Numbered from the stretch's first letter, positions 2,631 through 16,111 are shown. The stretch: 32,971 bases of DNA from Flavobacteriaceae bacterium ASP10-09a (GCA_000981625.1 LAQA01000047.1:22442-55412), one strand, 5' to 3'. The notes: generated by a model from the sequence alone, not told the origin. Numbers and translations: made by a program.

Positions 2631-3941
2631 TTACAAAGTAGTGAAATTATTAATTTTTATGTCTTTTGCTTTTAAATCGAACATTAAATTATACAAGCCA
2701 AAAAATGTTCTATTCATGTATATAAAATGTTTAGAACCTCTACTTGCATTGTACGATCTTAACTCTGCATTCTTTGAGTATCGTTCACCAAATTCGGTGA
2801 TTTTTCCAAAGAATTTTTCGTCAGAAAAATCAAATATTTCTTCGTGAAAGGGTTGGGTGAAAATAGATAACATTTCATGAAACATAGCACTAAAGAATTC
2901 TGACTCATCTTTACTGTCATCTTTCAATAAAATCTCTAATTCATACATTTTTTCTTCGAAAAGAACTTTATTGGAAAGTGTTTCTTCTTTTGCCAATACA
3001 AAATACGGATTGTAAAATTCTAAAGGAATAGTTTTCATACATCCAAAATCTAATGCAATTAATTTTCCTTCTTCAGAAATTAAAAAATTTCCAGGATGAG
3101 GATCTGCATGTACTTTTTTTAAATTATGAATCTGAAACATATAAAAATCCCATAAAGCTTGACCTATTTTATTAGATTTTTCTTGGTCGGTAGCTGCGTT
3201 TGTATATTCCGATAAATGCACTCCTTTCATCCAATCCATCGTAATGATTTGTTTGGATGATAATTCTGGATAATAATTTGGAAAAGAAAGATTAGGAATA
3301 TTTTGACAAGCAGATACAATTTCCTGACTTTGTTTTACCTCTAAAATATAATCAGTTTCCTCTAATAATTTATCTTGAACTTCAAAGAAATATTCATCAG
3401 AAGTTTTACCTTTCATGTTAAACATTCTTATCACAAAAGGTTTTAGTAATGCTAAATCTGACTTTATACTATCTGAAATCCCTGGATATTGAATTTTCAC
3501 GGCCAAACTTTTACCTTCTTTTTCAGCTTTATGAACCTGACCTATACTTGCAGCATTGTAAGCCTTAACATCAAATTTATCATAAATTTCTGAGGGAAAT
3601 TTTCCAAAACTCTTTTTAAAGGTTTTTATAACTAATGCTTCAGAAAGTGGTGGGACAGAAAATTGTGCCAAAGAAAATTTTTCTACATATGCTCTTGGCA
3701 TAATGCTTTTGTCCATACTTAACATTTGTGCCACTTTTAAAGGACTTCCTTTCAAATCCTTTAGACTGTCATAAATATCTTCAGCATTGGCTTTGTTTAG
3801 TTTTTCTCTTGCTTCTTCTTCAGTGTTTGTGATTTTATCACCGTAATATTTTAAATAATTAACGCCAACTTTTGCACCAGTTTTTACTAATTTTGATGCA
3901 CGCTGAATTTTCGTAATTGGAATGCTACTTGCTTTTTTCAT
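2631..3941 (-). CDS. ABC1/AarF (UbiB-like) kinase family protein
   Basis: 436 aa with LKGSPLKVAQMLSMD, AAASIGQVHKA-like (NAASIGQVHKAEKEGKSLAVKIQYPG), HADPHPGNF, LDFGCMK. Confidence 0.9.
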   Translation of the reverse strand: MKKASSIPITKIQRASKLVKTGAKVGVNYLKYYGDKITNTEEEAREKLNKANAEDIYDSLKDLKGSPLKVAQMLSMDKSIMPRAYVEKFSLAQFSVPPLSEALVIKTFKKSFGKFPSEIYDKFDVKAYNAASIGQVHKAEKEGKSLAVKIQYPGISDSIKSDLALLKPFVIRMFNMKGKTSDEYFFEVQDKLLEETDYILEVKQSQEIVSACQNIPNLSFPNYYPELSSKQIITMDWMKGVHLSEYTNAATDQEKSNKIGQALWDFYMFQIHNLKKVHADPHPGNFLISEEGKLIALDFGCMKTIPLEFYNPYFVLAKEETLSNKVLFEEKMYELEILLKDDSKDESEFFSAMFHEMLSIFTQPFHEEIFDFSDEKFFGKITEFGERYSKNAELRSYNASRGSKHFIYMNRTFFGLYNLMFDLKAKDIKINNFTTL

Positions 3942-3943
3942 AC

Positions 3944-4606
3944 TTATGTAGTGCTTTTTTGAAATTTTTCTTTGTACACAAATCTCCCAAAGTCAAAAGC
4001 ATTTTTCAGGAATTTGTTTTCTATAAGTTCGAAGCTAGTATTGATTGATTTTTCGATAAAAATATCTGTCTTTTCAAAAGAATCAGAGGTGTCTTCTAGC
4101 CAAAATTGAATGGTTAAAAACATTTGAATCCAAGCAGATTCATTGATGAGTTTTCGTTGAATTTTTTCTAAACCATCTACAGGTAAGATACTTTCTGATA
4201 AATCTAAATTATCGACAAAACTCATAAAACTTTTCTTTAAACTAGAAAAAGTACCTAATGATTTGAATTGATTTTTACATCCTTTTAAGGCAATCAGTAT
4301 GTATTCTCTGTTTAAATTTAAATTTTCAAAAAAAGTAAAATACAAACTAATTAGTTTATTCTTTTTATCAAAAGATGTAAATTCTTCACTTTCGCTTAGT
4401 ACCTCTAAAGAGTTTATGAAAAGTTCTTTAAAAATAGCTTTTTCAACCTTTTTTAAAGATTTGAAATGTATGTAAAAGTCGGTTTCTTCTAAATTTACTC
4501 TTTGACAAAATTCGGCTACATCTAGTGGTTTTGTTTGGTTCTCGATAACAAAATCCATGTACAATGTTAGTATGTCAACTTTAGAATTTTTTTGTTCTTT
4601 TGTCAT
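3944..4606 (-). CDS. TetR-family-like transcriptional regulator
   Basis: 220 aa all-helical, N-terminal HTH-like segment (DVAEFCQRVNLEETDFYIHFKSLKKVEKAIF); abuts the AarF kinase gene. Confidence 0.7.
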   Translation of the reverse strand: MTKEQKNSKVDILTLYMDFVIENQTKPLDVAEFCQRVNLEETDFYIHFKSLKKVEKAIFKELFINSLEVLSESEEFTSFDKKNKLISLYFTFFENLNLNREYILIALKGCKNQFKSLGTFSSLKKSFMSFVDNLDLSESILPVDGLEKIQRKLINESAWIQMFLTIQFWLEDTSDSFEKTDIFIEKSINTSFELIENKFLKNAFDFGRFVYKEKFQKSTT

Positions 4607-4630: not shown

Positions 4631-4673
4631 CGAAACGTTTTATTGTTAAAATAGAATCGAAGTATATAAAAAC

Positions 4674-4706
4674 AAAAAACCAAGTTAAAGTTTAACTTGG
4701 TTTTTT
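4674..4706. terminator. Bidirectional hairpin terminator
   Basis: AAAAAACCAAGTTAAA-G-TTTAACTTGGTTTTTT perfect inverted repeat with A/T tracts, downstream of the 96-aa phasin-like gene. Confidence 0.85.
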
Positions 4707-4725
4707 AAGGATATGCTCTTTATTT

Positions 4726-5016
4726 TTATGCAAATATTTTGGTAAATCTTTTTTTACCTTTTATAAAGTGATTTTTGTAAGTATCTAATGCATCAAAAAC
4801 TAGGTTTTGTTGATTTTCTAATAATTTAACGCCTCCTTTTAAAGCTTTGTCAGTAACCTTTTGCCATTGACCTGCAACAGTTATAGATTCTATAACTATT
4901 TCTTCTGTTGTGTTCAAAGCATAATCATTTGCTTTTTTTACATTTGATTTCGCTGATGCTATTGCAGTATTTACTTTTTCTGTAAAGTTTACTTTGTTTG
5001 TTTTTTTTGTGCTCAT
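4726..5016 (-). CDS. Small phasin-like helical protein (paralogue A)
   Basis: 96 aa; NTTEEIVIESITVAGQWQKVTDKALKGGVKLLENQQNLVFDALDTYKNHF aligns by eye with the two neighbouring proteins. Confidence 0.55.
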   Translation of the reverse strand: MSTKKTNKVNFTEKVNTAIASAKSNVKKANDYALNTTEEIVIESITVAGQWQKVTDKALKGGVKLLENQQNLVFDALDTYKNHFIKGKKRFTKIFA

Positions 5017-5044
5017 AATATTTTATATAGATAATTTGTTATAA

Positions 5045-5890
5045 CTATAACTCTCCTTTTAAAGCTAATTCTGCTTGTGCTTTCCAACCAGATAAATCAT
5101 AAATTTTAGCATTGATTCCTGCGTCATTTAATAAGTTAGTCAAGTCTTTAATAGTCATTTTTGCAATTTGATCGTACGCTGTAATATTTAATTCATTTAA
5201 GCTTTTCTCTAAAACAGGACCTATTCCTTTGATAACTTTTAAGTCGTTAGTAGTATCTGTTTTTTTAACTATTATTTTTTCTATAGCTTCTTCTTTCTTC
5301 GCTGCAGCTTTCTTTTTTGGAGCTGCTTTTTTTGCTGTAGTTTTTTTAGTTGTAGTTTTTTTTGTTTTTGTATCAGAAACTACTCCTACTTTTCCTTTAA
5401 CATCATCAATGATATCTTCTGTGTAATCTTCAATTTTGCCCTTTACAGTTTCAATAGTTTCAGAAATGTTCTTTTTTAGTTTAGTAGACATTTTTTCTGC
5501 TTTCTGAACCATTTTATTGTTAGTAACTTCTTTCTCAATTTTATCTTTCATCACTTCAGCTTTTTCAACTAAAGGATGTTCAGAAACCATTTTCTTTGCG
5601 TTTTCAACCATCTTTGGATCATATCCAACTAAAGTTTTTAAACGTTCTGTACTGTTTTCTAACTGACCTTTGATGGATTCTGCTGTTTCAACAACCATAT
5701 TAATTTGTTGTTTTGTTAAAGGTTCAGTTTTCTTAATTAATTTTGCGGTTAATTTTTGCCATTTTTCGCCAGTTTTCACTGTAGTTTCAATAGCGTTAAA
5801 AGAAGCGTCTATTAAATCGTTATTTATTCTTTTAACAATTGCTTTCGCTTTTCCTAACTTGTTTTCTTTTTTTGACTTTTTAGTTGCCAT
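5045..5890 (-). CDS. Phasin-like protein with Lys/Ala/Pro-rich linker and C-terminal helix-hairpin-helix (PhaF-like architecture)
   Basis: 281 aa: N-terminal VKTGEKWQKLTAKLIKKTEPLTKQQINMVVETAESIK; linker TKTKKTTTKKTTAKKAAPKKKAAAKKEEA; C-terminal DLKVIKGIGPVLEKSLNELNITAYDQIAKMTIKDLTNLLNDAGI (HhH motif). Confidence 0.6.
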   Translation of the reverse strand: MATKKSKKENKLGKAKAIVKRINNDLIDASFNAIETTVKTGEKWQKLTAKLIKKTEPLTKQQINMVVETAESIKGQLENSTERLKTLVGYDPKMVENAKKMVSEHPLVEKAEVMKDKIEKEVTNNKMVQKAEKMSTKLKKNISETIETVKGKIEDYTEDIIDDVKGKVGVVSDTKTKKTTTKKTTAKKAAPKKKAAAKKEEAIEKIIVKKTDTTNDLKVIKGIGPVLEKSLNELNITAYDQIAKMTIKDLTNLLNDAGINAKIYDLSGWKAQAELALKGEL

Positions 5891-5928
5891 AATATATGTT
5901 TTTTTTCGTTTTATTAATATGTATACTG

Positions 5929-5973
5929 CAAATATAATTTATGCGAGTTGCTAATGAGTTACAACTTAGTTTC
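5929..5973 (-). promoter_or_regulatory. Promoter with SARP-type direct repeats in front of the 281-aa gene
   Basis: Minus strand: GAAACTA-AGTT-GTAACTC-ATTA-GCAACTC-GCATAAAT-TATATTTG. Heptamers start every 11 bp; last heptamer is 8 bp from a perfect TAnnTTTG. Confidence 0.65.
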
Positions 5974-6223
5974 TGCTGAAAAAACCGAAATTTTTATTAA
6001 GGTTTGTCCAAATCATTCCTTTTCCTTTTTCAAGGTTATTGAATAATCTATCTTGTTGTTTTGCTGTAAAGTCAAAAGTGCTTTTTAAATTCTTAGAAGT
6101 GATTTCTTGTAAATTCTCTGCCCTATCAATAGTTTTTAAAACTATATTTTCTGTAGTTTTTAAAGCAAGTTGATTTAATTTTAATGTGTTTTCTTTAATC
6201 CTTATTGTAGAAATTGTTTTCAT
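5966..6223 (-). CDS. Small phasin-like helical protein (paralogue B), start re-assigned
   Basis: 85 aa from MKTISTIRIKENTLK; LALKTTENIVLKTIDRAENLQEITSKNLKSTFDFTAKQQDRLFNNLEKGKG. The ORF-track start (6277) lies inside the promoter; ATG at 6223 has AAAAAAG just upstream. Confidence 0.6.
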   Translation of the reverse strand: MKTISTIRIKENTLKLNQLALKTTENIVLKTIDRAENLQEITSKNLKSTFDFTAKQQDRLFNNLEKGKGMIWTNLNKNFGFFSRN

Positions 6224-6252
6224 CTTTTTTAGTTTTAATACTAATTTTGATG

Positions 6253-6297
6253 CAAACATAAAAAAGGGGAGTTGCAAATGAGTTGCAGTTAAGTTAA
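6253..6297 (-). promoter_or_regulatory. Promoter with SARP-type direct repeats in front of the 85-aa phasin-like gene
   Basis: Minus strand: TTAACTT-AACT-GCAACTC-ATTT-GCAACTC-CCCTTTTT-TATGTTTG. Two identical heptamers, 11-bp period, 8 bp to a perfect TAnnTTTG. Confidence 0.68.
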
Positions 6298-6308
6298 CTT
6301 ATTGGTAA

Positions 6309-7112
6309 TTAGTGTATTTCTTCTATTTCTTTCAATAGTTTCTTTGTTTCAGGAAGTGGAGCGATTCCATATTCTTCTTCTAGAATTACCTCGCATTTCA
6401 TATATGTTTTTATTGCTTGAGGCCTGTTTCCCTTTAAAATATAAGCTTGCATTTGTATTCTGTAAGCATCTTCCCAAGTTGCATCAATCGCCAATGCATT
6501 TTGTGCTAGACGGATGCTTTCTAAAGGGTTTTCTTTAAGTGTTATTTCTGCTAAAGTAATATACGTGCCTAATACTAAAAGTTGCACTTTTTCTCTTTCT
6601 TCAGAGGTCCAATCTTCATAAACTCTGTTAGGTAGATAAGAGCCTTTATATAAATTTAATGCTGCTTTATATGCTTTTTTTGAAATAGCTTTATCTAAGA
6701 TTAATGCCTCATTACCAATAATAATATACTTCTCTAAAGCTTCAACATCAATCCAAACTTTATCTAAATTAATTTGATAACTAACCCCTTGTCTAATAGT
6801 GAACATCGCTTCTGTTCTTGATGGTCTTTCTGGTTCTAAAACCTTATTAATTCCATGGAGTGCTACTTTAAAATCGCGGTCATTCCAATCTTCCCAAAGA
6901 CCATCCATAATTTTTTCTTTGTGAAGTGCATTTCTTTGGCGATTAGAAACTAAATATTGTAATAATTGAATGGTTTTATCTCTTGTCCATTCTTTTGCCT
7001 CAATTTTTTGTTGATTTCTCCATACACCAAAATTGCCTAAAGTTTCAATGCGGATTTGTGCATTTTCTTGAAAGGTTTGTAGTTCTAGTAATTGTTGATG
7101 AAAATCTGACAT
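6309..7112 (-). CDS. Stand-alone BTAD-domain (SARP-like) transcriptional regulator
   Basis: 267 aa: N-terminal OmpR-like winged helix (IRIETLGNFGVWRNQQKIEAKEWTRDKTIQLLQYLVSNRQ...LHKEKIMDGLWED...VALHGINKVLEPERPS) followed by a BTAD/TPR region (DVEALEKYI...ALNLYKGSYLPNRVYEDWTSEEREKVQLL...AYRIQMQAYILKGNRPQAIKTYMKCEVILEEEYGIAPLPETKKLLKEI). Confidence 0.85.
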   Translation of the reverse strand: MSDFHQQLLELQTFQENAQIRIETLGNFGVWRNQQKIEAKEWTRDKTIQLLQYLVSNRQRNALHKEKIMDGLWEDWNDRDFKVALHGINKVLEPERPSRTEAMFTIRQGVSYQINLDKVWIDVEALEKYIIIGNEALILDKAISKKAYKAALNLYKGSYLPNRVYEDWTSEEREKVQLLVLGTYITLAEITLKENPLESIRLAQNALAIDATWEDAYRIQMQAYILKGNRPQAIKTYMKCEVILEEEYGIAPLPETKKLLKEIEEIH

Positions 7113-7119
7113 TGAGCAA

Positions 7120-7635
7120 CTAGTTATTTTTTATAGAGTCAATTTTAGTAGCTACTTTTTTAATTTCTGATGAGAGCATTTCAATCTGTTTTTGAATTGT
7201 ATTGAAGTCAGATCTAGATGCATTTCTCCATTGATCAATTTGCACTTTCTCTGAAATCTCTTCACCAATTGTCATTATTTTACCTTGAATCTCACCCTGC
7301 AGATTGGTGAATTGTTTTTTAGGGTCTTTTAAGGTGTCTCTAATAACTTTTGGACCAACATCTTTGATGGTTTTCCACATAGAAAGACTTTTATTGATGA
7401 TGCTTTCTTGTTCTTCAGAAGTTTGATGTTTGGTAGCTTCTTCTGTTAATTCCCCTAATCTTATTTGCATAAAAGTAAGTGCATCATTAAAATCAGAAAA
7501 ACGTTTTTCATCACCATTCTGAACGTGTGATATTTTTCCTTTCCACTGGATTTTAGATTCTCCATTTTCCTCAAAAATTTGCTGGTTAAAACGAACCATA
7601 AAAGAGGCAGTTTGTTCTTGTTTTTTTTTCATCAC
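7120..7635 (-). CDS. Uncharacterised coiled-coil protein, possible granule-associated (PhaE-like) protein
   Basis: 171 aa; N-terminal small domain FMVRFNQQIFEENGESKIQWKGKISHVQNGDEKRFSDFNDALTFM, C-terminal coiled coil QIEMLSSEIKKVATKIDSI. Confidence 0.5.
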   Translation of the reverse strand: MMKKKQEQTASFMVRFNQQIFEENGESKIQWKGKISHVQNGDEKRFSDFNDALTFMQIRLGELTEEATKHQTSEEQESIINKSLSMWKTIKDVGPKVIRDTLKDPKKQFTNLQGEIQGKIMTIGEEISEKVQIDQWRNASRSDFNTIQKQIEMLSSEIKKVATKIDSIKNN

Positions 7636-7644
7636 TTTAAAATT

Positions 7645-8646
7645 TTATCCTGGTTCTTTTTCAGAACCAATTTCATATTGTATTAATCCTTTAAAAGCAT
7701 CATTTACTTTATTTCCCTCATATAAAACCTTATATATTTCTTCAGCTATTGGCATGTCAATATTATATTCTTTAGCAAGTTCTTTTACTACTTTTGCAGT
7801 TTTCACCCCTTCTGCAACTTCATTCATTTCACCAATAATTTGTTCTAAACTTTTACCTTGTCCGATTTGAAAGCCAACATGGTGATTTCTACTTTTTGTG
7901 CTAGAACAAGTTGCCACCAAATCGCCCATTCCTGCCAAGCCAGAAAACGTACTTTTTTTTCCGCCCATTGCAATTCCTAATCTTGTTAGCTCTGCCAAAC
8001 CTCTTGTAATTAATGCGGAACGTGTATTATCTCCTGCATTTGCTCCATCCCCCATACCTGTAGCAATTGCATAAATGTTTTTTAAAGCACCTCCTAATTC
8101 GCAACCAATTACATCGTTATTTGTATACACACGAAATAATCCAGAACTAAAAATAGACTGTAACCTTTTAGCAATCGAATCATCAACCATGGCTATAACT
8201 GCAGCTGCAGCTTTACCAAAATGAATTTCTTTAGCTAAATTAGGGCCTGTTAAAACGCCTATTGGATGTCCAGGCATTAACTCTTCAATAATCTCAGTCA
8301 TTCGCATTTTAGTGCTAATTTCTAAGCCTTTTGCAAGATTTATAATCGGCACCCAAGGCCTTATATGAGGTCTTGCTTCTTCTAAAACTTTTCGTAAACT
8401 TTGAGAAGGAACTCCCATTACTATAACATCTGCTTCTTCAACCGTTTCTTTTATCGAGTTAGATGCAACTAAAGCAGGTGTTAATTTGGCATTTGGTAAA
8501 TACTTTTCATTTGTATGTTGTTCATTAATCTCTTTAACGGTTGTTGGGTTTCTTGCCCAAATTATTGTTGGAACATTTTTTGCAGTCAATGATGCAACTG
8601 TAGTTCCCCAAGAACCACCACCTAATAATCCAACTTTTAGTTTCAT
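7645..8646 (-). CDS. gpsA: NAD(P)H-dependent glycerol-3-phosphate dehydrogenase
   Basis: 333 aa; GLLGGGSWGTTVA, GVPSQSLRKVL, NLAKGLE, GPNLAKEI, ELGGALKNIYAIATGM, AGMGDLVATCSS. Confidence 0.96.
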   Translation of the reverse strand: MKLKVGLLGGGSWGTTVASLTAKNVPTIIWARNPTTVKEINEQHTNEKYLPNAKLTPALVASNSIKETVEEADVIVMGVPSQSLRKVLEEARPHIRPWVPIINLAKGLEISTKMRMTEIIEELMPGHPIGVLTGPNLAKEIHFGKAAAAVIAMVDDSIAKRLQSIFSSGLFRVYTNNDVIGCELGGALKNIYAIATGMGDGANAGDNTRSALITRGLAELTRLGIAMGGKKSTFSGLAGMGDLVATCSSTKSRNHHVGFQIGQGKSLEQIIGEMNEVAEGVKTAKVVKELAKEYNIDMPIAEEIYKVLYEGNKVNDAFKGLIQYEIGSEKEPG

Positions 8647-8657
8647 AAATTAAGCTT

Positions 8658-11600
8658 TTAGTTTTCTAACTCTTTTAAAAATAAATTTCTTACTTCTTCT
8701 ATATACGTGTCTATATGTTTTGGTTTCCATTCAGAAGTGTCAACAGGATCTAAAACAACAACTTCAATATGCGTAGGATTAAACATTTTACTTCCTTTTG
8801 GCATCGCCATATATGCGTTTTTGATAACAATTGGTACAATAGGTACTCCGCCTTTCATCGCTAAGTGAAACGCTCCTTTTTTAAACTTCCCTAAAGTTTT
8901 GCTTCCGCTTCTTGTTCCTTCTGGAGCAATTACAATTGAGGTTCCATTTTTTAATGCTTCAATAGCTGGTTTCATTGCTTCTATAGCTTTGCTTTTATTC
9001 GAACGATCTACAAATATTGCACCCATGGCTTTAAAGATTGGGCCCACAGGTGTATATTCTAATTCTTTTTTTGCAACACCAGCGATGTCTTTTCTTAATA
9101 TTTTTAATAGGATGAAAAAATCTGCAGAACTTTGATGGTTAAAACAAAAAATGGCAGGTCTATGATCTTCCAAATTATGTTTTCCTTTTACAGCAATATC
9201 TAAACCAGCAAACTTAGTTCCTAGGTCTCCAATACTTGCTATTGCTGTGTTTGCACCTTCTTGTCTAGACATAGAAAGCGATCCTTTAAGCAAACCTTTT
9301 ATGGCTGATGGATAAATACTTGCTGCTGCCAAGCCAGTTCTTAGTCCGTTTACAAAAGGCACTCTTTTATTCTCTTTAAAACGAAGAATTTTCCAATCGT
9401 TTTCAAATGCTAATTGTGATAATTTACTATCAGGGTTTGTAGCAATTGGTTTTCCTACAATTTCTAAAAGAGGATAATCATCAATACTATCTGTATAGAA
9501 AAAACTTTTTGACAAGTCAATATTATTTGCTTTCGCAAAAGTTCTTCCAGCTCTAGCTTTTCCTTCTGACCAGCAAGTTTCTGTAATTACACCCGTAAAT
9601 TTTCCTTTTTTAACTTCCATTTCTGTGCAAAAAATATCTTTGATACCCAATTCATTTGCAATAGGAGTTATTTGATAACGAGTTGCAGCAGAAATGATAA
9701 CAACTTGGTGTCCTTTCTTTAAATGTGATGCAATTAATGTCTTTGCTTCAGGATAAATTGTATTTGCTAAATGGTCATGGTAAACTTCTTCACCTAATTC
9801 AATAAATTGATTTTCCTTGATACCTTTTACACCTAATGCAGAAATTTTTGTAAGTGTTTCAAAATCTCTATTTCCAGAAGCATACAATAAAACTGTAGCA
9901 AATTGAGATAGCAATTCTTTTGAGGTAGCTTTTCCACTTAATAAACGTGTTTTTAAAAATTGTTTTGCAGAAAAATCATTGATTAGAGTTCTATCTAAGT
10001 CAAAGAAAGCAGCGATGTGGTTTCCTTCCTCATCTTCAATAATAGTTTCTGTAACACTTTCTAAATCTGCTCCAGGAACAACCTCTTTATTGGTTGTTTC
10101 TTTGTATTTAGATTTTTTGGTGTTTACAATTTCTATTTTTTGTAGAAATTGTAAACGTTCTGTAAGATTATCTAATAAATCCATCCAAACATCTAATTCC
10201 TTGAAATCTATTTTTTTATCAAAAGGAGTGAGTTTACTATTTTTGGCTAACCTTAAGGCACTTATCAAAAAAGGTTTAGAAATACTATCTAACCTACTAA
10301 TTCTATTTTTCCAATGCAACTCTTTCCCTTTAAAAAGGCATAGTTCGATAAACTCTTCATCAGAAAAATCATCTTCTAAATCCCAATTATATATAGTATT
10401 ACAAACTACTTTGTTCGCTTCTAAGTAAATAAGTAATAAACCTTTAGAGACAAACATTTCTTGCCTTGCCAATAGATTTTCTATATCTCCATTTGGATCG
10501 CTAAGTATTGCTCTCCAGTTCTTATCAAACAACGTTAATTCAGCTTCAATTTCACTGCTAAATTTTGGTTTGTTTGTGTAGAAAAATTCAAACTTAAATA
10601 AATTTCGAAGACGCATTATTTCTGCCCAAAAAGAGATAATTCTATTAGGCGACTTTTCATCTTTTACTTTAACTAAAGCCATTTCTATAAATGCTCTGTG
10701 GTACAAATGCGCAGAAGACATATTTGCATAGTATGTAGCTGATAAAAACTCTGAAGAAGCTAAGCTATATTGCGTTTTATAACCTGCCTTATTTTTATGA
10801 ATAATAGCAGAACTTTGTAATAAGTTTAATGCTTTTTGTACGGATGCACTGATACTTTTTCCGCGTTCAATTAATACATCTTTTTTACGTTGTTCAATGT
10901 AATTCATTAATTTAATAACATTGAATTCTATTTCTTTTTTTGTGAGCGAAAAATTGTTCAATAATATATTACAAACCAGCGAAACTGTCGTTACTGGAGT
11001 AATCATATTTGCGTTATGAATCAATTCAAAAGCAAAACGAGGCAACGTGTTTTTATCAGAATAACTATCTTCTTCTTCAATATCTGGAATGATCGCATTT
11101 TGATGAGCGTCAGCCTCAACAGGTTCACCAAAACGAATAGCAGCTTTACCGTATTGATTTCCTAGTTTTTTAAAATAGTTGATAAAGTCGCCAATATTTT
11201 CAGATTTCTTGTCTTTTCCTTTACCCTCCTCAGTCATTTCTTTTACATCAGGAATCAAGTCATACACAATAGAAACAGGTACATACTTTATATTTCTTGT
11301 GCTTTCTTGTGCACCTTCCATGATGTATTTTAAAATACCCATTTGTGGATACACAATTTTACCTGTTCTAGAGCGAGTTCCTTCTATGTTCCAAGTTAAA
11401 TGATCACCGTTTTCGATCATACAAGAAATATAATGTCTTAATGCTGCTTTGTATATTAAATCATCTTTAAAACTTCTTCGGATAAAAATTAAACCAGAGT
11501 TTTTTCCCAATTGTTTAAATCCAGGAATTGCTAAATTAATACCTCCAAAAGTATAAGGAATTGGCATTCCATATCTTGCTAATGTGGTCACTAAAACAAC

Positions 11601-11906
11601 AGTATCTAAGTAGGTTTTGTGTGTTAAAATAAATGCAACAGAATTTTGTCGCATTAATTTCATAAGCTTCTTTATTTCTTTAGGGTCAATGTCTATCTTA
11701 TTATTGTAAGCTTTAGACATCATAAATTGAAATCCTTTTACAGATAACATATTTGCAACAGGATGTTGTTGAGAGTATAACTCTGCAACACAATCTGCAC
11801 CTTTTTTTTGAACTTCTGAAAACTCTATTTTTTGCTCTTTAGCAATTAACTGAAGCTTTTCTTGAAATTTAGTATGATTGATAATGTTCTGTAAGTTGTG
11901 TTCCAT
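8658..11906 (-). CDS. Trifunctional-looking fusion: glycerol-3-phosphate acyltransferase (PlsB-like) - HAD-IB hydrolase - 1-acyl-glycerol-3-phosphate acyltransferase (PlsC)
   Basis: Acyltransferase 1: HKTYLD and EGTRSRTGK; HAD: FFDLDRTLI; acyltransferase 2: HQSSAD and PEGTRSGS. Start moved from 11957 to the ATG at 11906, 2 nt after the upstream stop. Confidence 0.88.
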   Translation of the reverse strand: MEHNLQNIINHTKFQEKLQLIAKEQKIEFSEVQKKGADCVAELYSQQHPVANMLSVKGFQFMMSKAYNNKIDIDPKEIKKLMKLMRQNSVAFILTHKTYLDTVVLVTTLARYGMPIPYTFGGINLAIPGFKQLGKNSGLIFIRRSFKDDLIYKAALRHYISCMIENGDHLTWNIEGTRSRTGKIVYPQMGILKYIMEGAQESTRNIKYVPVSIVYDLIPDVKEMTEEGKGKDKKSENIGDFINYFKKLGNQYGKAAIRFGEPVEADAHQNAIIPDIEEEDSYSDKNTLPRFAFELIHNANMITPVTTVSLVCNILLNNFSLTKKEIEFNVIKLMNYIEQRKKDVLIERGKSISASVQKALNLLQSSAIIHKNKAGYKTQYSLASSEFLSATYYANMSSAHLYHRAFIEMALVKVKDEKSPNRIISFWAEIMRLRNLFKFEFFYTNKPKFSSEIEAELTLFDKNWRAILSDPNGDIENLLARQEMFVSKGLLLIYLEANKVVCNTIYNWDLEDDFSDEEFIELCLFKGKELHWKNRISRLDSISKPFLISALRLAKNSKLTPFDKKIDFKELDVWMDLLDNLTERLQFLQKIEIVNTKKSKYKETTNKEVVPGADLESVTETIIEDEEGNHIAAFFDLDRTLINDFSAKQFLKTRLLSGKATSKELLSQFATVLLYASGNRDFETLTKISALGVKGIKENQFIELGEEVYHDHLANTIYPEAKTLIASHLKKGHQVVIISAATRYQITPIANELGIKDIFCTEMEVKKGKFTGVITETCWSEGKARAGRTFAKANNIDLSKSFFYTDSIDDYPLLEIVGKPIATNPDSKLSQLAFENDWKILRFKENKRVPFVNGLRTGLAAASIYPSAIKGLLKGSLSMSRQEGANTAIASIGDLGTKFAGLDIAVKGKHNLEDHRPAIFCFNHQSSADFFILLKILRKDIAGVAKKELEYTPVGPIFKAMGAIFVDRSNKSKAIEAMKPAIEALKNGTSIVIAPEGTRSGSKTLGKFKKGAFHLAMKGGVPIVPIVIKNAYMAMPKGSKMFNPTHIEVVVLDPVDTSEWKPKHIDTYIEEVRNLFLKELEN

Positions 11907-11908
11907 AA

Positions 11909-13069
11909 TCAATTTAAAAAGAGGTTTGTAAATTTTGAAGTTCCTTTTTGTTTCCAAAATTCAGGAAAAAATAAACTTTCAATTTTAGTCGTTATCCCTT
12001 TTGGCTTCTTGCCAGTAATATTGGTATTTAAAGAATTGGCCACCGTTAATAAAACAGAAGCATTAGCACCCATGCCACAATGACTACCAAAAACTTCTAT
12101 ATTTTTAATATCTTTTCTTAATGTTTCTGCTTCCATACAATGTTTCCAAGGTAAAAGACCATCCGTTTTTGTAAAAATACAAGTAATAGGTACTTCTGGA
12201 ATCTCTTCCAGTTCCTTTATGAATTTGTCATTTCTTTCTTTCAATTTTCGACCTCTTAAAAATTCTAAAGATCTAACTACAGGTGTTTTCATGTTTTTAA
12301 CTCCCCAAACAGGAGAGCCAATTGTAACTAGCTGTTCTACTTTATCTGGATGTCTATTTGCAATTATTTTCGCAAAAATACCACCACCACTCCAGCCAAC
12401 TAAACTTACTTTTTCTTGATGTTTTTCATAAATTTCATCTAATTTTTCTATAAGTTTTGGTAAAGATTTTGAGTTAATCATATTTACACCTAGATCCCAT
12501 TTATAGGTAACAAATCCAACAGATTTTAGATAATTTCTTACAAAAGCTGTTGAATTATCATTGCCCAAATAAGGGGGCATTAACAAAACAGGTTTATTTT
12601 TACTTGCTTTGTGCTTTGGTATTAAAGGGTAAATGCCAAACATCGAAACCCATTCTATAATAGATCTAGTTTCTAATAAAACATTAAATAGCGGAGGAGA
12701 CTCTATTCTCCTATTTATTTCTTCAACTTTCTTTTTAAAAGTTTTTAGTACCTGAATAGCAACTTCATCTGTACCTTTCTTTGATGCTTTTATATTGCTA
12801 ATTCTCTCTAATACAATATTTAAAGTTACATAATCTCTATCAGGACCAAAATCTTCACAAACAGATATACACTCATCCAATAAAGTGTTTGTTTCTTTTT
12901 TTATTATTTTTTTTTCATCAATAAGGCTAATAATCATTTTTTCAAAAGGATGAAGTTCGAACTTTTGGATAACAATTTCTTTGGCTTTTTTCAATGTCAT
13001 TCCTTTCGACATTGCAACTTTTAAAGCCAGTTTTGTGAATGATGTATAGAGTGTTTTGTTGTTTTCCAT
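11909..13069 (-). CDS. Alpha/beta hydrolase with long N-terminal helical region
   Basis: 386 aa; VLLMPPYLGNDNSTAFVRNYLKSVGF, nucleophile elbow GWSGGG, late Asp/His region (FTKTDGLLPW, EVFGSHCGMGAN). Confidence 0.75.
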   Translation of the reverse strand: MENNKTLYTSFTKLALKVAMSKGMTLKKAKEIVIQKFELHPFEKMIISLIDEKKIIKKETNTLLDECISVCEDFGPDRDYVTLNIVLERISNIKASKKGTDEVAIQVLKTFKKKVEEINRRIESPPLFNVLLETRSIIEWVSMFGIYPLIPKHKASKNKPVLLMPPYLGNDNSTAFVRNYLKSVGFVTYKWDLGVNMINSKSLPKLIEKLDEIYEKHQEKVSLVGWSGGGIFAKIIANRHPDKVEQLVTIGSPVWGVKNMKTPVVRSLEFLRGRKLKERNDKFIKELEEIPEVPITCIFTKTDGLLPWKHCMEAETLRKDIKNIEVFGSHCGMGANASVLLTVANSLNTNITGKKPKGITTKIESLFFPEFWKQKGTSKFTNLFLN

Positions 13070-13078
13070 TTTTTTAAT

Positions 13079-14017
13079 TTAGGCTTTTATTTTTTCACTT
13101 AACCAATTAATAACGTCTTGTTCAACTTCATTTTTGTTAACCTCATTAAGCATTTCATGCCTTCCGCCTTTATATAGCTTTAGAGTAATATCATTAATGC
13201 CAGCTTTTTGATATTTATTTGTAACTTTTTCAACCCCTTTTCCCATTTCTCCTACTGGATCTTTATCTCCAGAAAAGATAAAAAGAGGTAAATTTTTTGG
13301 TGTGCTTTTAAAAGTAGAAACTTGGTTTACTTTCTTACTTCCTTTTAAAAGATCTAAAAAAACACTTAAAGAAAAATCTTCAATTCTTAGTGGGTCGGCT
13401 TCAAATAAATCAACTTGATTTTCATCACTACTAATCCAATCTACTTTTGTTCTGTTTGGTTTAAATTTTTTATTAAATTGTGTAAAGAATAAGTTTTTAA
13501 GGAACTCATTACTTCGATGCTTTCCGTTTAATTTACCCAAGAACTTAGCACTTAGAAGTCCGAAAGAACCCAATCCTTTCATAAAATTGGCAGTTCCTGA
13601 TAAAATTAAAGCCTCCAAATCACCACCATATTTTGTCGCATATTCTCTGCTTAATAATGAACCCATACTGTGACCAAACAAAATTATTTTTTTATTTGGA
13701 TGTTCTTTTTTGATGATATCCGTAAGATGTCGCATGTCATTTAAAGCATCAGAAAAATAATCATCACCATCGTAAAAACCTAAAAAGGCATCATTTTTTG
13801 CGGATTTTCCATGAATCCGATGGTCATTTGCATAGACTTCATAACCTTCTTTTTGCAATGTTTTAGCGATTGGTTGATATCTGCCTGCATGTTCACCAAC
13901 TCCATGAGAAATTTGTATAATTCCTTTTAAAGGGATCTTATTGTTGGCGGGCCATTTGTAATAAAAAATGGTGACATCATCAATCGTTTTATATGTATTT
14001 GTTATAAAGCTCATCAA
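13079..14017 (-). CDS. Alpha/beta hydrolase, monoacylglycerol lipase / lysophospholipase family
   Basis: 312 aa; QISHGVGEHAGRY, NDHRIHGKS, LFGHSMGSLLSREYA, GDKDPVG, YKGGRHEMLNE. Confidence 0.88.
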   Translation of the reverse strand: MMSFITNTYKTIDDVTIFYYKWPANNKIPLKGIIQISHGVGEHAGRYQPIAKTLQKEGYEVYANDHRIHGKSAKNDAFLGFYDGDDYFSDALNDMRHLTDIIKKEHPNKKIILFGHSMGSLLSREYATKYGGDLEALILSGTANFMKGLGSFGLLSAKFLGKLNGKHRSNEFLKNLFFTQFNKKFKPNRTKVDWISSDENQVDLFEADPLRIEDFSLSVFLDLLKGSKKVNQVSTFKSTPKNLPLFIFSGDKDPVGEMGKGVEKVTNKYQKAGINDITLKLYKGGRHEMLNEVNKNEVEQDVINWLSEKIKA

Positions 14018-15850
14018 TTATTTTTCTAAAAATTTAGAGAGTAATTGTAGTAATTTGTTCGTATTCTTTTTAGTCCCTGTAAGTTTTATTCTTTCTTGAA
14101 TTAAGAGTTCTTCTATTAGTAAATTCTTTTTATAAAGGTTCGATAAATTAGTATCATCTATTTCTACTTTAACGCAAGGTTTAAGGGTTGCTTTCTTTTT
14201 TACAGAAACAGTATCTTCTAAAATCTCTAGTTGATAGTTTATTTTAGCATCGCCTAAATTCAGTTGAAAATCATACAAACCTATTGTTTGCTTTCTTAAT
14301 TTTTTATCTTCATTTAAAACTTTTTTAATCGCAGTAAAAAAAGGTAAACTTTTAATTTTATCAACTTTTTTAACTGTTTTTTGTTTCCCTTTTGCTAAAA
14401 TTATTTTTTCTAATTCATTGGCAGATTCTCTTATATATCTAGAAAACTTATCTGTATCTGGCATTGTTTTAGCATCAGAAGTTGTGGTTATAGAAACTAA
14501 ACCATTGTAACTAAATGCAGCGATAATTAATCCAAACCCATCTAAAACAGGAGTCAAACCAAAAATCCCAACAATCTTATGACCTTTTAAGTACAGAGGG
14601 TTTTGTGGTCCAGGAACATTAGTAATTGTAACATTAAAAGGAGGCCTGTGAAATTCCTTAATATTATATTTAGTATACAAGCCTGCAGCTAAATTTGCCA
14701 ACCCAAAAGGAACCGCATCTGCCATTTTAGAAAGCGCTTTTGCACCAACAGCTTTATGCTTAGATTTACCTAAATTAGTCTGTTCTTGAATATATTCTAA
14801 ACGTTCAATTGGATCTTTTATATGTGTAGCAATTTTAACTAACATATTAGAAATTTGATTGTTCATTTTTTGGTTATCCCCTTTTACACGGATAGAAATT
14901 GGGACATTTGCAACTAAAGGTTGAGTTGGTAATTTTTCTTTTTCTTCTAAATATCTTCTGATTCCACCTGCACAAATAGCTAAAATTAGGTCGTTAATAC
15001 TAACGTCCATAATCTTACGAAGCGTATTTATTCTGTCAAAATCTAAAATTGCAGTTCCCCAAGTTCTCTTTGGAGAGACCGATTCATTAAAAATAGTTTT
15101 TGGAGTAGAAAATGAATTTTTATGAATTGTTTTTTTGACATTCAATTGATTCTTCATTTTTCCTTTCATTAAAGAAAAAGCAGTTTCACCAATTAATCTT
15201 GGAATTTTTAATGGGTTTTTTAAAAATCCATAAGAACTTTTTAATAATAAGCTAATTTCATCTGGCAAAGGTTCTGGTTCATATGGTTTTGGCGGAGGTG
15301 TTTTTTTGTTTTTATCCTCCTCATTTTTATCAAATAGAATTCCCATAATTCCTACACCAGAACTTCCATCAATCATAACATGATGAATTTTAGAAACAAT
15401 AGCAATGGATCCTTTAGGAACTTGTGAGACTTCATCTAAGCCCTCGATAAAACTAATAGACCACAAAGGTCTTCTTAAATCTAAAGGACTGCTAAAAATT
15501 GACGAAGTCATTTCCCTTAATGTTTTCCAGTTTGCTGGGTCAGGAAGTTTTAATCTATTGATGTGTAAATCAATGTCAAAATTTGGGTCATCAACCCAAT
15601 ATGGATAGTCTAAATTCAGTGGAACATTTAAAAGTTTCTTCCTGAATTTAGGAATTAAATGAAGCTTAGACGCAACTATTTCTTTAAAATCATTAAATGC
15701 GATTGATCCTTCCACAATTGTTAAAGTAGCAATATGCATTGGGCTAGATGGAGATTCTGCGTACAGAAAAGTTGCATCTTGTCCAGATATTTGTTGAATA
15801 GAACTGTCTAGAGCATCTTGCAAAAGATCTTTTATTATCTTTTTTGCCAT
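14018..15850 (-). CDS. Wax ester synthase / diacylglycerol acyltransferase (WS/DGAT) with C-terminal SCP2-like extension
   Basis: 610 aa; catalytic KIHHVMIDGSSG (HHxxxDG), RRPLWSISFIEGL, NVPGPQNPLYL. Residues after ~490 (YDFQLNLGDAKINYQLEILEDTVSVKKK...VEIDDTNLSNLYKKNLLIEELLIQERIKLTGTKKNTNKLLQLLSKF) look SCP2-like. Confidence 0.9.
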   Translation of the reverse strand: MAKKIIKDLLQDALDSSIQQISGQDATFLYAESPSSPMHIATLTIVEGSIAFNDFKEIVASKLHLIPKFRKKLLNVPLNLDYPYWVDDPNFDIDLHINRLKLPDPANWKTLREMTSSIFSSPLDLRRPLWSISFIEGLDEVSQVPKGSIAIVSKIHHVMIDGSSGVGIMGILFDKNEEDKNKKTPPPKPYEPEPLPDEISLLLKSSYGFLKNPLKIPRLIGETAFSLMKGKMKNQLNVKKTIHKNSFSTPKTIFNESVSPKRTWGTAILDFDRINTLRKIMDVSINDLILAICAGGIRRYLEEKEKLPTQPLVANVPISIRVKGDNQKMNNQISNMLVKIATHIKDPIERLEYIQEQTNLGKSKHKAVGAKALSKMADAVPFGLANLAAGLYTKYNIKEFHRPPFNVTITNVPGPQNPLYLKGHKIVGIFGLTPVLDGFGLIIAAFSYNGLVSITTTSDAKTMPDTDKFSRYIRESANELEKIILAKGKQKTVKKVDKIKSLPFFTAIKKVLNEDKKLRKQTIGLYDFQLNLGDAKINYQLEILEDTVSVKKKATLKPCVKVEIDDTNLSNLYKKNLLIEELLIQERIKLTGTKKNTNKLLQLLSKFLEK

Positions 15851-15890
15851 GTATTTCTAAAATTTATGTGTTCGAAGTTGAAAGATAATT

Positions 15891-15916
15891 AAATTAAAGA
15901 TTTTCATCTTAAATTT
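15891..15916. repeat. Imperfect inverted repeat in the WS/DGAT leader
   Basis: AAATTAAAGAT-tttc-ATCTTAAATTT, 11-bp arms with one mismatch, ~40 nt upstream of the ATG at 15850. Confidence 0.35.
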
Positions 15917-15997
15917 CTCAACACTGCAAGATAAATAATTTTAGTTAGATTTTCTAATCTGAAAGTAGTAGAGTTTTGTTTGTGTTTGTATAAAAAG

Positions 15998-16028
15998 AAA
16001 GTCTCAAAAAAATATTTTTTGAGACTTT
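15998..16028 (-). terminator. Hairpin terminator downstream of tRNA-Thr
   Basis: AAAGTCTCAAAAAA...TTTTTTGAGACTTT inverted repeat 10 nt after the tRNA 3' end. Confidence 0.8.
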
Positions 16029-16037
16029 TAAAATTTG

Positions 16038-16111
16038 AGCCGATAGAGGGACTCGAACCCACGACCTGCTGATTACAAATCAGCTGCTCTAGCCAGCTGA
16101 GCTACATCGGC
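16038..16111 (-). tRNA. tRNA-Thr (anticodon TGT)
   Basis: Minus strand GCCGATGTAGCTCAGCTGGCTAGAGCAGCTGATTTGTAATCAGCAGGTCGTGGGTTCGAGTCCCTCTATCGGCT; cloverleaf by eye, loop TTTGTAA. Confidence 0.95.

Follow-up and report, generated by a model that had tools for sequence, protein, structure and literature searches.

Gene clusters organized around WS/DGAT are the closest described systems to the locus reported here, and they include Mycobacterium tuberculosis Rv2482c-Rv2485c, which we take to be a Kennedy-pathway WS/DGAT cluster. The locus lies in a 32,971-nucleotide stretch of DNA from Flavobacteriaceae bacterium ASP10-09a, a marine relative of Polaribacter (LAQA01000047.1:22442-55412), the whole of which is referred to as the window, and encodes WS/DGAT together with glycerolipid enzymes, two hydrolases, phasin-like proteins, and regulators. 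A 2023 paper describes Bacteroidota WS/DGATs that carry an SCP2 tail and have an AGPAT/hydrolase close by, neighbors that WS/DGAT also has in the window, as well as complete Kennedy clusters in other phyla (PMC10351704). The Rhodococcus jostii atf9-plsB-plsC cluster and proteobacterial clusters likewise combine WS/DGAT, GPAT, and an AGPAT-HAD protein, and one gammaproteobacterial scaffold cluster also has GpsA (PMC10351704). The window differs from these Kennedy-pathway clusters in that GPAT, HAD, and LPAAT form one polypeptide and that it includes genes for granule proteins and regulators.

Three described granule-associated systems also invite comparison. The Rhodococcus protein MLDS binds droplets through its N terminus and DNA through lysine-rich C-terminal repeats, and it is encoded beside the regulator MLDSR (PMC5504291). 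The window protein PLP-B resembles MLDS in layout; it is phasin-like, its family often ends in a helix-hairpin-helix (HHH), and the nearby BTAD regulator is of another type than MLDSR. PhaF of Pseudomonas combines a granule-binding amphipathic helix with a basic DNA-binding C-terminal part (PMC3574117). Some PLP-B members match the PF05597 phasins, but PLP-B is linked to WS/DGAT rather than to a polyhydroxyalkanoate (PHA) synthase, and the window protein falls under the family cutoff. In plants, ABC1 atypical kinases (ABC1K) are associated with the plastoglobule, a lipid-droplet-like particle (PMC4915526); here, in contrast, the ABC1 protein is bacterial, its link to lipid storage is gene neighborhood only, and its gene pair is common outside the locus.

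The sequence-only reading had supposed that no such locus was known in Bacteroidota. That supposition has to be narrowed, since WS/DGAT with AGPAT/hydrolase is already published; the rest looks undescribed. The Bacteroidota portions of that paper's main text considered here do not mention the GPAT part, GpsA, CC, BTAD, the PLP trio, the lipases, or TetR-ABC1 (PMC10351704). A search of the open-access literature, with subscription papers outside its scope, turned up no account of the PLP trio, CC, BTAD, or ABC1 in a WS/DGAT locus and none of CC-BTAD in PHA operons.

RESULTS

The locus encodes a conserved set of lipid-synthesis enzymes and hydrolases

We read the locus, with a probability of about 0.8, as a dedicated neutral-lipid storage module that would make mainly triacylglycerol (TAG), coat the resulting droplets, and remobilize them; the product, the coating, the DNA tethering, and the regulation are the parts that we infer. 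The locus comprises about twelve genes, counting TetR and ABC1, and is conserved as a block (Table 1). Its gene content, its intact motifs, the co-conservation of its genes, and a CC-BTAD pair common to PHA operons are observed. These bear out much of the sequence-only reading, which had proposed a TAG or wax-ester storage module; product, coating, and remobilization stay at the level of prediction.

WS/DGAT passes the curated family score (TIGR02946, 404 bits against a cutoff of 310) and contains the Pfam domains PF03007 (178 bits) and PF06974. The HHxxxDG active site is present in all 77 full-length homologues. At the C terminus, the SCP2 match is weak in the window protein (0.026), reaches 2.4e-7 in relatives, and occurs in 6 of 6 members. 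A single frame, 1,099 amino acids (aa) as listed, holds GPAT_C, HAD, and Acyltransferase domains, and its separate parts match LPAAT, GPAT, and HAD structures in the PDB. The motifs of this triple fusion (GPAT, LPAAT, and HAD DxDxT) are kept in 57 to 58 of 58 homologues, and the three domains adjoin WS/DGAT as in Kennedy-pathway neutral-lipid clusters. The module GpsA lies above its curated cutoff of 436 bits.

Hyd1 is a clear monoacylglycerol-lipase-type alpha/beta hydrolase whose GHSMG motif is found in 51 of 52 homologues. GxSxG is present in all full-length homologues of Hyd2, and the matches of this protein to NCBIfam bioH (8e-9), class III PhaC (1e-3), and PHA depolymerase (2.6e-3) are all below cutoff. 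Hyd2 is a weaker member of the alpha/beta-hydrolase group, remotely like BioH, PHA synthase, and PHA depolymerase. Every catalytic motif tested is intact across the module homologues.

The module genes co-occur and remain linked across Bacteroidota

A lack of co-conservation between the phasin-like genes and WS/DGAT had been named beforehand as a refuting outcome, and this outcome did not occur. We found WS/DGAT in 7 of 251 genomes of the family, CC in exactly those 7, and PLP-C in the same 7 plus one marginal match (G082), which was weak, lay in an unrelated context, and was set aside. If relatedness is ignored, an identical set of 7 out of 251 would arise by chance with a probability of about 1 in 10^13. 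In a sample of 398 genomes from the phylum, 21 have a WS/DGAT domain, and the 5 genomes with CC (one of them a marginal case) all belong to these 21.

Gene order was compared in six family genomes and in 80 named loci that a search with the WS/DGAT alignment had retrieved; because these loci were picked by WS/DGAT similarity, the counts measure linkage, not prevalence. In Polaribacter the order is WS/DGAT-Hyd1-Hyd2-GPAT-GpsA-CC-BTAD-PLP-A-PLP-B-PLP-C-TetR(-ABC1). Most other flavobacteria, including Ulvibacter, Lacinutrix, Dokdonia, Winogradskyella, Patiriisocius, Croceivirga, and Muricauda-like strains, have CC-BTAD-PLP-A-PLP-B-PLP-C-TetR-ABC1-WS/DGAT-Hyd1-Hyd2-GPAT-GpsA. The two orders are circular permutations of each other, which places TetR-ABC1 inside the module. 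All 36 fully flanked loci from flavobacteria contain WS/DGAT, Hyd1, Hyd2, GPAT, GpsA, CC, BTAD, and PLP-B, and most of them also contain PLP-A (33), PLP-C (32), TetR (27), and ABC1 (22), the last two counts being partly lowered where the 10-kb flank ends. The neighborhood conservation expected across Flavobacteriaceae therefore holds, and elsewhere in the phylum the genes are rearranged. In metagenome-assembled genomes of Saprospiraceae, Chitinophagales, and Cytophagia, with WS/DGATs 45 to 60% identical, WS/DGAT has the same CC-BTAD, PLP-B-PLP-C-Hyd2, and GPAT groups around it, in varied orientations. Since gene content is kept despite this reshuffling, we argue that the genes form a functional unit. 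Distances among module proteins correlate with WS/DGAT distances (r = 0.62 to 0.94, lowest for ABC1).

CC-BTAD homologues head a PHA operon

The BTAD domain (PF03704) exceeds its curated cutoff of 22 bits, and the putative N-terminal winged helix of the regulator matches PF00486 weakly (15.3 bits against 26.2). In the AlphaFold2 model of CC, an N-terminal domain of three strands plus a helix has a predicted local distance difference test score (pLDDT) of about 75 to 80, and the long-helix tail scores low. A fold search with CC gave no significant PDB match and no solved relative; weak matches to WXG100 and coiled-coil families were judged to be coiled-coil noise.

Homologues of CC (~1e-23) and BTAD (~1e-70) are adjacent in G263, G282, and G376, which belong to a different family of Bacteroidota. 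In these three genomes, the pair (L182:7971-14811, L184, and L185) heads a PHA (polyhydroxybutyrate) operon, in which the genes after it encode a small helical protein, PhaE, class III PhaC, a PhaB-like reductase, a 161-aa protein, and a PhaA-like thiolase. Family scores were run on L182, and for PhaE also on L184, giving 94 to 95 bits for PhaE (Pfam cutoff, 26) and 490 bits for class III PhaC (cutoff, 365). The same three genomes also hold a shorter, divergent WS/DGAT, in G263 on a separate contig. Family scans of the window's module proteins found no PHA synthase. Because their homologues head a PHA operon, CC and BTAD go with storage granules rather than with one lipid. We tentatively suggest, at somewhat less than even odds, that CC-BTAD is a granule control pair serving both TAG droplets and polyhydroxybutyrate granules, in which CC would sense or mark the surface and BTAD would adjust transcription, with PLP-B anchoring droplets to the nucleoid.

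The three PLP proteins are phasin-like and related to one another

PLP-A, PLP-B, and PLP-C are mutually related, with a PLP-C to PLP-B profile match of 99.2%. Among 41 PLP-B members, 12 match the Pfam Phasin family PF05597 (best, 1.7e-6), 17 match the apolipoprotein domain, and 31 match HHH_5. For PLP-B, the label "phasin-like" that had been given to these proteins is supported by relatives, but the window proteins themselves fall under the Pfam cutoff. The middle of PLP-B is rich in lysine and alanine, and its K+R-rich 40-aa stretch has a median fraction of 0.375. This predicted layout of phasin-like helix, lysine/alanine-rich stretch, and HHH corresponds to that of PhaF and MLDS, which link granules to DNA. 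PLP-B may, on this analogy, attach droplets to the nucleoid. The PLP-C model is all-helical; scattered Pfam matches of PLP-C were put down to chance.

A system for membrane-lipid remodeling or acyl trafficking, with the small helical proteins as membrane-enzyme scaffolds instead of granule coats, would suit the lack of convincing family matches for PLP-A and PLP-C and the binding of amphipathic helices to membranes as well, but it is very improbable given the CC-BTAD homologues in a PHA granule operon, the Phasin matches of PLP-B members, and the general knowledge that characterized bacterial WS/DGATs yield neutral rather than membrane lipids.

Two variants of the PLP region were seen. Ulvibacter antarcticus carries one further small PLP gene (L046:5389-6133), four PLPs in total, and genome G086 has an extra 243-aa open reading frame (ORF), with no relatives in the module, between BTAD and PLP-A (L145:10652-11383).

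The gene set favors TAG over wax esters

TAG is favored as the predicted product because all steps leading from glycerol-3-phosphate to diacylglycerol are encoded by fused or neighboring genes, their motifs are kept, and an extra GpsA is present in 6 of 7 module genomes. Those six have a second, lower-scoring GpsA besides that of the module, and G209 has the module GpsA only; three module-free relatives have only the lower-scoring GpsA and lack the module type. PlsY (PF02660) was found in none of 10 genomes searched (G000 and nine relatives), so in these genomes a different enzyme must carry out the first acylation of housekeeping lipid synthesis. This absence was rejected as a sign of acylation redundancy, since it holds with or without the module.

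WS/DGAT could instead esterify another alcohol (a fatty alcohol, giving wax esters; a carotenoid; or another lipid alcohol), with GPAT-HAD-LPAAT serving phospholipids or taking only part of the flux. WS/DGAT enzymes are generally known to be often bifunctional. The SCP2-like domain could present other lipids (PMC10351704). We nevertheless regard this alternative as improbable, because each fully flanked locus from flavobacteria encodes the complete route to diacylglycerol next to WS/DGAT and the conserved module is without any alcohol-forming gene.

TetR-ABC1 is a probable accessory part of the module

The TetR-ABC1 pair is widespread and, in many lineages, has become part of the module; we count it as accessory. 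TetR is present in 161 of 251 family genomes, and module-free copies adjoin ABC1 in 24 of 24 cases inspected (L153-L176). The ABC1 motif reads KxAQ, not the family KxGQ, in 29 of 31 homologues. Some module loci lack the pair (L055 and L059), and G086 has its TetR elsewhere. This wide distribution, the loci without the pair, and the terminator between PLP-C and TetR in the window would all suit a chance neighbor with no role in the module. We consider that unlikely, since in most Flavobacteriaceae outside Polaribacter the pair lies inside the module, between PLP-C and WS/DGAT. Module-linked TetRs also form a separate group scoring 350 to 374 bits, against at most 275 for others, on an alignment built from module-linked copies, which favors these. 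Finally, the pair is missing at a module-free Polaribacter site.

That site, in a Polaribacter without WS/DGAT (G621; L195:2321-6002), holds photolyase, tRNA-Thr, and tRNA-Pro genes and then a lone module-type gpsA, followed by genes for uridine kinase, DivIC, and a mutase, which in the window lie beside the module. Eleven of the 12 module genes, TetR-ABC1 among them, are absent. The simplest reading is that the module was lost and gpsA left behind; possibly, the module was instead gained around a preexisting gpsA. The site is a natural deletion usable for comparison.

Extent and boundaries of the block

All ten genes claimed by the sequence-only reading on the minus strand between 15850 and 4726 were found, and the hairpins at both ends are real (16 pairs at one, 14 at the other). 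As a boundary, the hairpin after PLP-C does not stand, since the module reaches past 4674 to TetR and ABC1. The hairpin at 16028-15998 directly follows tRNA-Thr and is therefore probably best read as the terminator of that tRNA. Gaps are near zero, as had been stated, from WS/DGAT to BTAD, but the PLP genes are 28 to 85 nucleotides apart. The PLP-A ORF as listed reaches 6277 from a TTG; its most likely start is an inner ATG near 6223 (~85 aa), which fits homologue lengths (~83 to 113 aa), and an inner ATG near 11906 is likewise the most likely GPAT start, again in agreement with homologue lengths. The base composition of the block is not unusual relative to its flanks and gives no sign of recent transfer.

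In the region 5' of WS/DGAT (15850-16036), a stretch like ATTATTTATCTTGCAGAGTTG is common to Polaribacter loci and is a possible promoter or operator. When the regions upstream of WS/DGAT were aligned, a conserved stretch was visible, but an operator could not be clearly recognized in it.

Table 1. Features of the module and its edges in the window
Feature	Position	Strand	Remarks
WS/DGAT	14018..15850	(-)	610 aa; HHVMIDG active-site motif; C-terminal SCP2-like domain (~residues 511-594)
Hyd1, monoacylglycerol-lipase-like alpha/beta hydrolase	13079..14017	(-)	PF12146 170 bits; GHSMG
Hyd2, alpha/beta hydrolase	11909..13069	(-)	GWSGG serine box; weak family matches
GPAT-HAD phosphatase-LPAAT triple fusion	8658..11957	(-)	~1080 aa from the likely start near 11906
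GpsA, module-specific paralogue (second glycerol-3-phosphate dehydrogenase)	7645..8646	(-)	PRK12439 494 bits
CC, family without assignment	7120..7635	(-)	Predicted small beta-beta-beta-alpha domain, then long helices
BTAD (SARP-like) regulator	6309..7112	(-)	PF03704 48 bits
PLP-A, small phasin-like helical protein	5966..6223	(-)	Homologous to PLP-C
PLP-B, phasin-like helix, lysine/alanine-rich stretch, HHH tail	5045..5890	(-)	
PLP-C, small phasin-like helical protein	4726..5016	(-)	Profile match to PLP-B
Terminator-like hairpin	4673..4707	(-)	16 pairs, then T run; between PLP-C and TetR
TetR-family regulator (TetR_C_23), module-associated subtype	3944..4606	(-)	PF17931 119 bits
ABC1/UbiB atypical kinase-like protein	2631..3941	(-)	PF03109 183 bits
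tRNA-Thr and its terminator hairpin, module's left edge	15998..16111	(-)	tRNA-Thr itself, 16037-16111

DISCUSSION

In the proposed mechanism, GpsA would supply glycerol-3-phosphate, which GPAT-HAD-LPAAT would acylate twice, and the HAD domain would dephosphorylate phosphatidate to diacylglycerol. The phosphatidate phosphatase role is a published but unproven suggestion for such fusions (PMC10351704). WS/DGAT would then add the third acyl chain, giving mainly TAG. PLP-A, PLP-B, and PLP-C would coat the droplet, which PLP-B would probably tie to DNA via its lysine-rich/HHH tail in the manner of PhaF and MLDS. Hyd1 and Hyd2 would remobilize the lipid, the BTAD and CC pair would control or organize storage granules, and TetR-ABC1 would be an added control unit.

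Several points weigh against this reading. The support is computational throughout. The window PLP-B scores 14.3 bits against the PF05597 cutoff of 28.8, and PLP-A and PLP-C are almost without phasin matches of their own. An NCBIfam PhaH match of PLP-B cannot count toward the phasin claim and was rejected, since it lies over the low-complexity lysine-rich/HHH tail and is also found in the unrelated L21 and NuoE proteins. The structure models of CC and PLP-C are of low confidence (PLP-C pLDDT, 62). A fatty-alcohol source may exist; PF07993 was rejected as a fatty-acyl reductase marker because it matches every control genome and is too unspecific to tell.

Bacterial lipid-droplet biology has so far rested on a few actinobacteria and proteobacteria. 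If the storage-module reading is true, culturable marine bacteria (Polaribacter, Dokdonia, Winogradskyella, and Croceivirga) would offer a second system, a compact, reshuffled but conserved, phylum-wide module whose roles in synthesis, coating, breakdown, and control could be tested one by one through single-gene deletion. The CC-BTAD pair makes granule-surface sensing, whatever the core, directly testable. The module is also relevant to the ways in which marine flavobacteria may persist from one carbon pulse to the next.

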